Assembly: GCA_030651175.1 (NCBI GenBank) | Contig: JAUSCR010000083.1 | Span: forward strand, 1-32,066 | DNA length: 32,066 nt | Direction of reading: 5' to 3' | Source: Dehalococcoidia bacterium | GTDB lineage: Bacteria > Chloroflexota > Dehalococcoidia > Lucifugimonadales > SHYF01 | In this document: piece after piece, positions 14,697 through 19,160 of the stretch | Layout of the letters: the number at the start of each line of letters is the position of its first letter | How positions within the stretch are numbered: position 1 is the first letter of the stretch | Made by a program: the position numbers and the translations under genes | Notes under the pieces: generated by a model | Told to the model about the DNA's origin: nothing | Databases searched by the model: none | What the model saw: only the letters and a program-made list of their open reading frames with translations

Positions 14697-16022
14697 CTAC
14701 CGCAAAGCCCAGTACAGCACCTGCCGTGCCGTTGCATCTGCGGCAGACCAGTTGAGTGTGAAGCCATCGCTGGTGAAGCCCGATAGGGTGGCCTGGGCAT
14801 TCAACGTGGTTGGCCCGGTGGCCATCGTGACTACCGCGTTGGTGGCAGTGTAGCTATTGGTATCCGACGGGTCAACGTTCCTGGCCTGGCTCCAGATGCT
14901 GCCCTGCGCCGCAGAGGATATGCCAGCGCCTACCGACAGTGTGTTGGGCGCTACAATGGTGGTGCCTGCGACCATGTTCCTGCTCAGGAACATGAGGCTC
15001 CGAGGCTGGAAGCCGACGCCAGTTACGGTCTGGCTGCCGGTAGCGGCTGGCTGCGCAAAGTTGCCCACCAGGTGGCTGCCTCCCTTGAGGGCCAGGTAGA
15101 AGATGGGCGTGGAAGCCGCCGGCGCATTGGACTTGTTGACTGTGAAACCATCAACGTCCATGGAGACGAAGGCGGCAATGGCGTCCTGGGCGGGAGGCGC
15201 TGCGTTGGTCAGCAGCAGAATGGAGGCGTTGGTGCGCTGCTGGGACCTCTTGGAAGTGTTGGCAGTATCGGCGTCCCTGGTTGCGACCACCACGGCCCCC
15301 TGGGAGGTGGAGCTCTGGGCAATGCCCAGAGACAATTGAGAGAAGAGCAGTCCGGTATCGTTGGCGCCAGCCGCAGTCCCGCCAAAAAGGAAGAGGACGA
15401 AGTCGGGCTGGAAGCCCAAACCCGTCACCGCCTGGTTGCCGGTGGTAATCGAGAGGTTGAAAGTGCTGGCCACGGCGTTGGTGAGGCCGTCGCCGCCCAG
15501 GGCGATGTAGTGGATGGTATCGGCCCGGGCCTCGTTGGTAGTCCAGTTGATTGTGAAGCCGTCGGCGTCAAAGGAGGTTAGCTCTGCCTTGGCCGCAAGG
15601 GTGGGCGTGCCGTTTGAGAGCATCAAGATCATGTTGGTTGCCGACTTCCAGCTTCCCGCGTTGGAAGTCAAAGCGGCATCGTCCTCGGCGATTGCCACTC
15701 CACGCTCGTTGGCCGCGCCCGTGGCAAAGCCAAAGCCCGTGCTCTGCATGGCGGCGAATCCTGCGGCTGTCTGGCGGGTCCAGAAGAAGATGACTGCCTT
15801 GGGCTGGAAGCCTACGCCTGTGATGGCCTGGCTGGCCGGCGCGCCTGCCGTGACCTTGGTGAAGCTGCCTTTGGCCACCCGCACGAAGGCAGCCGAGGTG
15901 GTGACGGTGTTGCCTGCCACCGGCACGGAGTCGGTGAGCAAGGCCATGGTACGCCCCTGGACGAGGCTGGCCCCAAACAGGGACAGCGCCAGGAGCAGCA
16001 CGGCGCACTGTAGAGCTTTCAT
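14697..16022 (-). CDS. Secreted protein with three internal repeats, probable SipW-type substrate
   Basis: I do not recognise the family. The N-terminus has a hydrophobic stretch (about 5-20) followed by ALLTDSVPVAGNTVTTSAAF, which resembles the start of mature TasA/camelysin proteins cut by SipW-type peptidases (FxDxxxxxGNTFxxG). The rest is three repeats of about 130 residues. Each has GVGFQP-hydrophobic strand (about 68, 200, 334), then DxDGFTxN (about 152, 288, 417) and ends in a strand such as IHYIALGG, IFYLALKGG or VLYWALR. The composition is rich in Ala, Thr, Gly and Ser, as in beta-rich surface proteins. The ATG directly follows the stop of the signal peptidase gene, so the two are co-expressed. 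Confidence 0.7.
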   Translation of the reverse strand: MKALQCAVLLLALSLFGASLVQGRTMALLTDSVPVAGNTVTTSAAFVRVAKGSFTKVTAGAPASQAITGVGFQPKAVIFFWTRQTAAGFAAMQSTGFGFATGAANERGVAIAEDDAALTSNAGSWKSATNMILMLSNGTPTLAAKAELTSFDADGFTINWTTNEARADTIHYIALGGDGLTNAVASTFNLSITTGNQAVTGLGFQPDFVLFLFGGTAAGANDTGLLFSQLSLGIAQSSTSQGAVVVATRDADTANTSKRSQQRTNASILLLTNAAPPAQDAIAAFVSMDVDGFTVNKSNAPAASTPIFYLALKGGSHLVGNFAQPAATGSQTVTGVGFQPRSLMFLSRNMVAGTTIVAPNTLSVGAGISSAAQGSIWSQARNVDPSDTNSYTATNAVVTMATGPTTLNAQATLSGFTSDGFTLNWSAADATARQVLYWALR

Positions 16023-16610
16023 TTACCTGGCCTCTCCATTGGAAGATGGGTCTGGCGATTCCTGCAACCGCGCCCGGGCCTTCTTTCCCTGCCGCTCCCG
16101 GTACCACATCAGGCCCAGGATGACGGCCGGAATGATGACGAAGAGGGTCAGGCCGTTGGTGGAGTGGGCAAAGTTTACCAGGTAGCCCATCTTGGGCACG
16201 TCAAAGATGAACTTGGCCACAACCCGTTCCTCGGCTACCAGCGTACTGTCCGGCGTGGGGTTATTGTCGCCCTTGACCTCAAACTGGCGGCCCTGAGGTG
16301 TATCCACCACTCGGATAATGCGGTGGGTCACGAATATCTTGCCCGAGCGGTATGTCACGACGTCGCCCACCCCAACCGTCGTCGGGTCAACATTCCTTGT
16401 CATGGCGATGTCCCCTACGTGTATGGTTGGCTCCATGCTCCCGGAAAGGACTATCAGGGAGTTGATCCCAAAGAAGCCAGACAGCGTGGTGGCTGCCATC
16501 AGCACGGCTACGAACCCGACCAAGGCGACAGCCAGTCCCATAAGGGCCTGAAGCAGGACCCTCTTGGCCCTTGACGGGGTGCCTTTGACTTTTTCGTTCA
16601 ACTCAACCAT
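16023..16610 (-). CDS. Signal peptidase I, SipW/ER type (S26B)
   Basis: This membrane protease removes signal peptides outside the cytoplasm. It belongs to the Ser-His type: the nucleophile is in VLSGSMEPTIHVGD (S58) and the second catalytic residue in FVTHRIIRV (H96), where ordinary bacterial enzymes have Lys. KGDNNPTPD follows, as expected. There is one membrane helix at about 20-42 and another at about 154-170. The length of 195 residues fits SipW. The zero-base junction with the downstream repeat protein marks that protein as a likely substrate. No strong ribosome site is visible before the ATG at 16610. Confidence 0.9.
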   Translation of the reverse strand: MVELNEKVKGTPSRAKRVLLQALMGLAVALVGFVAVLMAATTLSGFFGINSLIVLSGSMEPTIHVGDIAMTRNVDPTTVGVGDVVTYRSGKIFVTHRIIRVVDTPQGRQFEVKGDNNPTPDSTLVAEERVVAKFIFDVPKMGYLVNFAHSTNGLTLFVIIPAVILGLMWYRERQGKKARARLQESPDPSSNGEAR

Positions 16611-16671
16611 TGCTGTTTCTCGTTGCGCCGTAGCGCCTTTCTCTTCTCTACCAGTTTGACATTGCCAAGCT

Positions 16672-16741
16672 GGGGTAGCTACCCCTCAAGGGAGTGAGAA
16701 GGAGGTGATTTACCCCATCACCCTTTTGGGCGACCAGGCTG
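16672..16741 (-). promoter_or_regulatory. Conserved upstream element of the SipW operon
   Basis: On the minus strand the element reads CCAAAAGGGTGATGGGGTAA then ATCACCTCCTT. A GGTGAT/ATCACC pair can fold, and a perfect 14-base palindrome ggggtagctacccc follows at 16672-16685. Similar sequence lies at 19104-19145 before the TasA-like gene. It may be a promoter, operator or RNA leader; the type is unknown. Confidence 0.4.
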
Positions 16742-16804
16742 GTACTCGGTTGCAATAATCAGCGTTCTCATGAACACTTGCGAACTCGTTATCAACCTAC
16801 CGAG

Positions 16805-16927
16805 CCATCCCCCTTAATCCCCCTTCCTTTCCTGGAAGGGGGATTAAGAACTTTCTGGGGGACACCCCCAGTCCCCTGCCAAAGGGGCTTCGCCCCTCTG
16901 GACTCCTCTTTCTTGGCAGCCTGCTAG
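16805..16927. repeat. Structured repeat family, copy C
   Basis: This is the most compact copy. It has perfect 15-bp arms (cttaatcccccttcc at 16813-16827, complement at 16834-16848), then ctggggg-aca-cccccag, then aggggc-ttc-gcccct, ending ggcagcctgctag. It lies between the second signal peptidase gene and the conserved element of the first. Confidence 0.85.
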
Positions 16928-16929
16928 TT

Positions 16930-17693
16930 TTATCGTCCTTCATTTCGTATTTGCCTTACGCCGGGATCCCCATTTCCCGGATCTGTGCTGCCAGTGGAAG
17001 AGGGGCCTTCCGATGAAGATGGGAGGCCACGTCTCCGGATGGTGCGCCGGAACCCCAGCCACGCCAGCACCAACAAGGGGGCTGCAATGAACAGGACGCG
17101 CCCCGCCGTGGAGTTGACGAAGGAGACAGGAATCCCAGCCGTGGTACGCGGTACACCACCTTCCCCACAATGGCCTGCGCCGGTATCGCCCTGGGGTCCG
17201 CCGTCAGGTTGGCATCACCGCGCATTAGAAAGAAGGGGCCCTGGGGAGTGACGTCCAAACCAACGATGCGGTGGGTGATATTCCCGCCGGCGGTGGAGTA
17301 TGTGACCACGTCCCCTATCTGGAATGCGTATGGGTCTTGCTTCCGGACAACGGCGATGTCCCCTACGTGTATAGTCGGCTCCATGCTGCCGGAGAGTACA
17401 ACCATGGGGTAGAAACCGAAAATCACCGGAAGAAGCGTCATGGCCACCAGCAGGGCCAGGCCGCTCGTCAGGCCAAGAAGCGCCCCAGCCAGGAAGCGCT
17501 GTATTTGCGGGCGAGACGGCATGGCCAGGCCCTTGCGCCGGGGCGTGTCCAAAGGCGCCCCCGCCGGCCCCGGAGCCGCACCAGTCGCCCCACCTACGCC
17601 AGCCTGTGGAGCCTGCCGTTGCTCGCGCTTTCGCTTTCGCTCCTCGTAAGCCTTCCGGCGTGGGGATATCATATGGACAAAGCCTGCCGACAT
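16930..17693 (-). pseudogene. Second SipW-type signal peptidase, frameshifted near its C-terminus
   Basis: The N-terminal 188 residues form a SipW-type peptidase: a charged linker, a membrane helix (about 67-95), VVLSGSMEPTIHVGD (nucleophile S103), NITHRIVGL (H141) and VPRLGFL. The track ORF then continues with a Cys- and Ser-rich tail unlike the family. Moving the frame by one base at about 17127-17129 gives VSFVNSTAGRVLFIAAPL followed by more hydrophobic residues, which matches the second membrane helix of the first peptidase (NFAHSTNGLTLFVIIP) and stops at 16930. A single missing G would explain it. The catalytic residues are intact, so a protein without the C-terminal helix might still act. 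It could be a sequencing error. Confidence 0.8.
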
Positions 17694-17695
17694 TG

Positions 17696-18550
17696 CTATA
17701 TGCCCTGAGCCTGCATCATGAAGTCCACGCTGCAGCTCACTCCCTGGTATTCGTTTCCGGCGTCCTGGGGCACCGATACCAGGATGGCCAAGTTATAACG
17801 CACTCCCGGTTCCAGGACCATGGGCGCCGCCCTGCCATCTATCATGTCCACAAGCTTGCCCTTCGCCACTACCTTGGGGGCTTTGCCAGCCTCAACGGAG
17901 ACAATGGCGGTTCGGAGAGCAGAACACAGCCGGCTATCCTGGCCAGCGGTGACGGTGGGACGGAACTCTGCCAGGATGATGTTCTTGGTGGGGTTCATCA
18001 CCTGGGCCAGGCTCGCCGCTGGGGACCCTGGCACCATGTGCTCCGGGTAGCTAAACTGAGGCTCAGCCTGGGCCGGCTGCGTGGCTGGAGTTGGGCCCTG
18101 GGTTGCCTGCCCCGACGGGCCCGGGACATGAGTCGGCTGCGCCTCCGGTGTAGGAGCGGGGGCAACCGTCATCGGCTTCTCGGAGTACCCCAGGGCTTCC
18201 CTGACCTCGGGCAGTGCCATGGCCCACATCACTGGCTGGACTGTCTCGAGTTGTGCTTTGGTGCTGGGAAGGATGCCGGGTTTCGGGGCCTGGGCCAGGG
18301 TCTCCACCGGGGCCTCCGCCACTACCCTGAACTGAGTCCTGGACACCAGGACCGGCGGGCCGGCGCCGTCCAGAGGCGTGATTACATCGGAGATCCTGGG
18401 GTCGCCCAGGAAGGGAAAGACCGCCACCCACAGAAGAAGCCCAACTATAGCCCCTCCCAGGAACCACCGCTTCCCACCGGCCTTTGCAAGCCAAGGAGAG
18501 ACAGCCCCGAAGGGCTGTCTCTCCTCATGTCCTTGGTGAAGCTCAGCCAA
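17696..18550 (-). CDS. Membrane-anchored protein with TasA/camelysin-like C-terminal end
   Basis: The 284-residue protein has a short cytoplasmic N-terminus, one membrane helix (about 29-48) and a Pro/Ala/Gln/Thr-rich linker (about 127-165). Its C-terminal domain ends NEYQGVSCSVDFMMQAQ, which resembles the last strand of TasA/camelysin proteins. The start is a TTG at 18550 backed by GGAGGAACC. It lies 32 bases after the TasA-like gene and two bases before the second signal peptidase. It could anchor or assemble the TasA-like product; that is inferred. A very stable hairpin covers its first codons. No known family is assigned. Confidence 0.65.
   Translation of the reverse strand: MAELHQGHEERQPFGAVSPWLAKAGGKRWFLGGAIVGLLLWVAVFPFLGDPRISDVITPLDGAGPPVLVSRTQFRVVAEAPVETLAQAPKPGILPSTKAQLETVQPVMWAMALPEVREALGYSEKPMTVAPAPTPEAQPTHVPGPSGQATQGPTPATQPAQAEPQFSYPEHMVPGSPAASLAQVMNPTKNIILAEFRPTVTAGQDSRLCSALRTAIVSVEAGKAPKVVAKGKLVDMIDGRAAPMVLEPGVRYNLAILVSVPQDAGNEYQGVSCSVDFMMQAQGI
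18494..18525 (-). promoter_or_regulatory. UUCG-capped hairpin at the start of the membrane-anchor gene
   Basis: On the minus strand perfect 14-bp arms (aggagagacagccc and complement) are closed by C(UUCG)G, an exceptionally stable RNA loop. It covers codons about 9-19 of the gene starting at 18550. No run of U follows, so it is more likely to be an mRNA stabiliser or translation brake than a terminator. Confidence 0.6.
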
Positions 18551-18582
18551 GGTTCCTCCATGTAGCGTCTGTCAAGCTAGCG

Positions 18583-19092
18583 CTAGTTGTTGACCGTCTG
18601 CTCAGCCGCGAAGGTGAGCGTAGCCGTGGTGGTCAGGCCCTGGAAGGTGTTGCCCGTGCCTATCGGCAGCTCTGCCTGGAAGCACAGGACTTCCGTACCA
18701 GTGGTGGCCACCAGGGTGCGGTCGCCGGCTTGGAGTCCCGTAGTCGGGTCACCAATGAGGTTGATCCCTGCCGTGGTCGCCAGGTCGCCGGCAGCGCGCA
18801 CCACCGTGCCGTCGGTCCCGAAAGCGGCATTGGTGCAGGTTGTGACCCCGCTCTTGATTGTGAGGTCTATCTGCGCCGCCAACACGTTCTCAGTGGTGGT
18901 GCTGGTCACCGCATAGCGGAACTGCAGAGACCCAGGGTTGTTTACCGTAATTGGGTTGGTGACCTTGTCCCCAGGCGCCATGTTGCTAAATGTTATCAGG
19001 GCCGTTGTGGGGCTTGTGGTGAGGTCCACCGTGCCCGTTGCGTGCTTTTCCTGACTGCTGCTATCGTAACCTCCCCTAATTTCGGTGCACAT
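18583..19092 (-). CDS. TasA/camelysin-like fibre protein lacking a signal peptide
   Basis: The mature-type domain is clear: ATGTVDLTTSPTTALITFSN, then MAPGDKVTNPITVNNPGSLQ and a C-terminal strand NTFQGLTTTATLTFAAEQT. This is the pattern of TasA and camelysin, extracellular proteins that form biofilm fibres and need SipW for processing. Two cysteines (TTCTN, VLCFQ) could form a disulfide. The usual hydrophobic signal segment is missing in all frames just upstream. The track start at 19131 would translate the conserved upstream element, so the ATG at 19092 (MCTEIRGG) is preferred, without a good ribosome site. The 5' end is probably deleted or damaged. Confidence 0.7.
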   Translation of the reverse strand: MCTEIRGGYDSSSQEKHATGTVDLTTSPTTALITFSNMAPGDKVTNPITVNNPGSLQFRYAVTSTTTENVLAAQIDLTIKSGVTTCTNAAFGTDGTVVRAAGDLATTAGINLIGDPTTGLQAGDRTLVATTGTEVLCFQAELPIGTGNTFQGLTTTATLTFAAEQTVNN

Positions 19093-19103
19093 CCCATATT
19101 CGG

Positions 19104-19160
19104 GTGAGACAAGGGGGATAAACCACGTCATCCTTTGGTATCAGGCCAGCAGGCCAAAAC
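19104..19160 (-). promoter_or_regulatory. Second copy of the conserved SipW/TasA upstream element
   Basis: On the minus strand CCTGATACCAAAGGATGACG then TGGTTTATCCCCCTTGTCTC aligns with the element before the first SipW gene over about 50 bases, sharing the pattern CCAAARGRTGAYGKGGTWWA followed by ATCMCC. A GGAT/ATCC pair replaces the GGTGAT/ATCACC pair. The element partly overlaps the extended TasA-like ORF. Confidence 0.4.

Follow-up and report, generated by a model that had tools for sequence, protein, structure and literature searches.

Among the closest described counterparts of the locus analysed here is the tapA-sipW-tasA operon of Bacillus subtilis, in which a SipW-type Ser-His signal peptidase lies beside a TasA-family protein. 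TasA assembles by donation of an N-terminal donor strand (PMC9674648, PMC10151520). Variable further secreted proteins accompany SipW in the sipW-calY1-bc_1280-calY2 operon of Bacillus cereus and in the sipW-bsaABCRSD operon of Clostridium perfringens (PMC10151520, PMC7395162). We analysed a 32,066-nt stretch of DNA, hereafter the window, from Dehalococcoidia bacterium GCA_030651175.1 (contig JAUSCR010000083.1, positions 1 to 32,066 of the forward strand; GTDB lineage Chloroflexota; Dehalococcoidia; Lucifugimonadales; SHYF01), whose order includes SAR202. A sequence-only reading of this DNA had placed five genes between 14697 and 19131, and we confirmed all of them as minus-strand ORFs. Their arrangement resembles the B. 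subtilis operon in setting a SipW-type Ser-His peptidase beside a TasA-family protein, but here the host belongs to Chloroflexota, two peptidases stand in tandem, the TasA-like ORF is missing both leader and donor strand, TapA is not recognisable, and there is an additional cargo of phage type. The B. cereus and C. perfringens operons differ from it as well, with one peptidase and other secreted partners. The suggestion that the system is undescribed held in part: SipW/TasA loci are a well-known kind, including operons with several secreted proteins, but the literature searched contained no paper on camelysin together with Chloroflexota. On balance, we favour the interpretation that the locus is a damaged, rearranged SipW/TasA-family export locus whose working pair is a peptidase, SipWb, and a repeat protein of 441 residues, P441.

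We scanned a genome collection for TasA relatives with a five-row TasA alignment. The closest named relatives came from 'Chloroflexi bacterium', 'SAR202 cluster bacterium' and Ca. Lucifugimonas marina, in agreement with the earlier conjecture that the organism belongs to Chloroflexota. The TasA/camelysin family (M73) was present in 10 of 250 genomes of the order and in 34 of 400 genomes sampled from the phylum, and SipW scored above its cut-off in 27 of the 250. Nine of the ten M73 genomes also carry an above-cut-off SipW (Fisher p 4.8e-9, a value that overstates independence because the genomes are related). Conserved co-occurrence, on which the sequence-only reading had staked its module, was thus found for TasA and SipW, which occur together in 9/250 genomes. 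TasA is followed directly by SipW in G038, G110, G123, G161 and one G111 locus (L033), and this adjacent pair is the usual plan in the order, frequently extended by a third gene for a variable secreted protein. G038, G110 and G123 each carry such a third gene after SipW; the G038 and G110 versions are related to each other, and the G123 one is unrelated to them. At the second G111 locus (L024 4340-6637), the SipW-type peptidase forms the C-terminal end of a 765-aa ORF, in which SPOR-like repeats, recognised by eye, are fused to it. Three tandem TasA-like genes were seen in G154 (L027 535-2974). Several TasA genes of the order have response regulators or a histidine kinase nearby, a resemblance to the sipW-bsa operon of C. 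perfringens; no regulator was seen near the window locus.

Intact TasA–SipW loci exist in the order. Ca. Lucifugimonas marina, whose genome is complete, has one (CP046147.1, L113), in which SipW and then a third secreted gene come after a TasA 52% identical to that of the window. The same order of genes is found in a groundwater Chloroflexi genome (JACQOS010000026.1, L107), whose TasA is 67% identical. Unlike the window, both loci have a complete TasA with a leader, one peptidase and a third gene that differs in sequence and has no phage-type repeats. In this usual plan, a membrane SipW-type peptidase would remove the leader of the neighbouring TasA-like protein, and the cleaved TasA would be expected to polymerise, each N-terminal strand being donated to the next subunit. 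TasA would thereby form fibres in this Chloroflexota group, and a third secreted protein, encoded alongside TasA and SipW, would often be added. In the ocean, SAR202 bacteria are widespread; those in culture encode no peptidoglycan biosynthesis, and one of them has an S-layer-like layer outside its membrane (PMC10444878). SipW/TasA in the SAR202 group, including Ca. Lucifugimonas marina, is a testable candidate for part of their surface. Conclusions from the window copy alone are limited because that copy is damaged.

The five window genes form two groups, TasA-like ORF–P284–SipWa and SipWb–P441, with intergenic spacings of 32 bp, 2 bp and 0 bp inside the groups and 345 bp between them. Two adjacent operons had been proposed; the two groups are there, but two functional operons are not what we found. 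Between the peptidase genes lies a copy of a ~125-bp interspersed, MITE/REP-like repeat (16801..16927, strand not assigned), with ~40 further copies elsewhere in the same metagenome-assembled genome (MAG) at 79-91% identity. The sequence-only reading had missed this repeat, as well as the truncation and the frameshift described below. Promoter and terminator scans of the locus yielded no more than scans of shuffled sequences. A search for the empty site in G001, a genome of the same genus, turned up nothing closer than distant aminotransferases (27% and 31% identity).

The TasA-like ORF (18583..19131, minus strand, 182 aa) matches Pfam M73 (PF12389) at 33.9 bits, over the cut-off of 22.5, and weakly matches the NCBI TasA model (26.5 bits; cut-off 450). 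TasA structures 5of1/8aur are matched with E 2.7e-4, or 5.5e-9 when the family profile is used, and identity to the order's other TasA-like proteins is 34-57%. The TasA/camelysin assignment holds. The homologous part opens only around residue 32 (~19038), with TGTVDL, and the family HMM matches from model position 50 of 207. In the alignment, the 5' part of the ORF (19039..19131, minus strand) is homologous neither to the signal peptide of the family nor to its donor strand. There is no hydrophobic segment within the ORF, and the signal model found no leader upstream of it in any of the three minus-strand frames scanned. The ORF has neither the SipW-type signal peptide nor the N-terminal donor strand of the family. 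Since TasA assembles through its donor strand, the protein as assembled in the window would be neither exported nor polymerised.

Two further TasA copies are present in the same genome. The copy on contig C74 (3.9 kb; L023 2740-3883) has a good leader but is cut off after ~110 residues, where it runs out of frame into the apparent end of an Fe-S oxidoreductase, a function read from the sequence; the junction is either a deletion junction or an assembly chimera. The nucleotide match between it and the window ORF starts only at the TVD codons. The third copy has a disturbed leader region and lies across the start of contig C168 (L155 1-6767), which shares 601 bp with C74 at 86% identity. A LuxR-type response regulator adjoins the C168 copy, and further along that contig we noted by eye a histidine-kinase-like ORF and type IV pilus-like ORFs. 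Over the 66 codons shared by the window and C74 copies, dN is 0.12 and dS 0.43, which suggests that the overlapping part of TasA was under constraint for most of its history.

These copies bear on whether the damage is real. An assembly error could produce it, since the data come from one MAG assembly and the two other TasA fragments are truncated or at a contig edge. We therefore considered the alternative that the window holds an intact two-peptidase TasA system, with the lost leader and the frameshift in SipWa described below being assembly or sequencing errors and P284 being the membrane anchor of the fibre. The absence of an internal stop from the TasA-like ORF, the excess of dS over dN relative to C74 and the strain-like mixture around the C74 and C168 copies all fit such an explanation. 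However, the break in TasA is not a simple indel, and no upstream minus-strand frame offers a leader. Together with the evidence from SipWa and P284 given below, this makes the intact system unlikely. We favour the damaged locus, and the damage, seen in a single fragmented MAG (199 contigs, estimated contamination 5.59%), may be biological or an assembly error.

Both peptidases score above the TIGR02228 cut-off of 51.85 (SipWa 77.4 bits, SipWb 105.6 bits), and both contain the Ser motif SGSMEP and the His motif THRI in the alignment. They are thus Ser-His peptidases of the SipW/archaeal S26 type, as had been proposed. Both fall below the cut-off of 190 for the SipW equivalog of Bacillus (NF046067), with 109.7 bits for SipWb and 57.9 bits for SipWa. 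SipWb (16023..16610, minus strand) has an intact frame with two hydrophobic membrane segments. In SipWa (16956..17693, minus strand), the frame changes near 17125, and its C-terminal membrane segment is encoded in another frame (16930..17125, minus strand; VSFVNSTAGRVLFIAAPLLVLAW... in the translations), so that no complete frame includes this segment. The retention of catalytic motifs in SipWa speaks for an intact system. The two proteins are 46% identical over 135 aa, and given this identity and their common motifs, a tandem duplication appears likely. In the matches listed for the order's 250 genomes, SipW-type peptidases stand side by side in the window's genome alone, which counts against an intact two-peptidase arrangement. 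We propose that the window TasA-like gene has lost its leader and donor strand and that the adjoining SipWa is a frameshifted tandem copy.

P284 (17696..18550, minus strand, 284 aa) consists of an N-terminal membrane segment, a Pro-rich linker and ~40 C-terminal residues resembling the last TasA strands. It had been described as a membrane-anchored protein with a TasA-like terminal strand; the hydrophobic segment at about residue 29, followed by the Pro-rich stretch, supports the anchor, but the resemblance to TasA is weak. The C-terminus aligned to the TasA profile in hhalign with E 0.0016 and a probability of only 16% over 39 columns, and it scored 8.3 bits against TasA in HMMER. While this likeness of the end of P284 to the TasA C-terminus would suit a fibre anchor in an intact system, its lack of relatives does not: there was no credible homologue in the 250 genomes of the order. 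Low-scoring matches there were discarded, falling mainly within the Pro-rich linker. No NCBIfam or Pfam match to TapA/YqxM was obtained at E up to 1, and a single-sequence fold was uninformative (pLDDT 49). One idea is that P284 is a membrane-anchored acceptor of the TasA donor strand.

P441 (14697..16022, minus strand) starts at the base right after the SipWb stop and combines a SipW-type leader (~residues 1-46) with three phage-type beta repeats of ~130 aa each (residues 53-441). The earlier description of a triple-repeat secreted protein with a SipW-substrate-like N-terminus stands for the repeats and the leader, but it missed the phage-type character of the mature part. Residues 4-46 are 53% identical, over 43 residues, to the leader of a secreted protein from G072. 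Against a model of the order's TasA and cargo leaders, from which P441 was left out and in which the TasA leaders were joined by those of L034/L107, the P441 leader scored 21.6 bits, and 0 of 2000 shuffles scored as high. Against the TasA leaders alone, the score was a weak 9.8 bits, with 4/2000 shuffles as high, and the leader is therefore convincing only when the L034/L107 leaders are included. TIGR04088, the model for SipW-dependent signal peptides, gave no P441 match at E up to 10. Most likely, SipWb would cut the leader off P441, and P441, as a three-domain beta protein of phage-virion type, would then be released or displayed at the cell surface, where it may act outside the cell.

The repeats of P441 match 14 IMG/VR loci at 28-38% identity. 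At L125, the homologue lies between the major head protein and the head-tail adaptor, and at L126 it lies beside the tail tape-measure protein. An AF2 model of P441 is confident and all-beta (pLDDT 84.9, pTM 0.90), and its best viral fold match is a phage protein containing DUF7483 (E 8.4e-10, probability 1.00), with a whole-chain TM-score of only 0.42 and 12% identity. By sequence, DUF7483 was absent from the Pfam matches of P441 at E up to 1. There was no usable match among PDB folds, as the listed matches had query-normalised TM-scores < 0.3. Assignments as a YbgE, KdpC or DUF2470 protein were rejected, all being below cut-offs. Nucleotide searches of the locus against phages, and searches of P441 against plasmids, returned no match.

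Phage-type repeats might simply be a prophage relic with a leader-like start, unlinked to SipW, in a chance neighbourhood of decaying genes. The distribution of P441 would suit this: no other genome among 301 from the phylum has the mature part. In the 250 genomes of the order, the only other strong match is to the leader, beside one weak, stop-containing match. The genes flanking the locus are ordinary metabolic genes, which also agrees with chance, but no phage genes were recognised among those searched. Moreover, P441 abuts the SipWb stop, keeps its frame open over 441 codons, with a GC3 towards the top of the range of its neighbours, and resembles the secreted G072 protein in its leader. 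We regard such a chance neighbourhood as quite improbable. The position of the L125 and L126 homologues among virion genes could also point to a surface decoy or adhesin acquired from a phage and placed under SipW control. We give this very little credence.

We therefore retain the damaged locus with SipWb–P441 as its probable working pair. The sequence-only reading had further inferred two substrate sets, each dedicated to the peptidase of one operon. Two such working operons were not borne out, as SipWa is frameshifted and the TasA-like ORF, in its present form, is not exportable; the absence of adjacent peptidases from every other genome listed, the orphan status of P284 and the phage-type cargo leave them equally unsupported. 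A broader possibility, which we hold only tentatively, is that SipW loci of the order have an exchangeable cargo slot next to the peptidase, here occupied by a surface-displayed three-domain phage virion protein with a dedicated peptidase. Phage-type repeats behind a SipW-type leader would exemplify a host that has recruited a structural domain of phage to its own surface. We also observed a homologue of the P441 repeats on a viral-classed contig (L127 3890-5248), where it carries an ordinary Sec-like leader.
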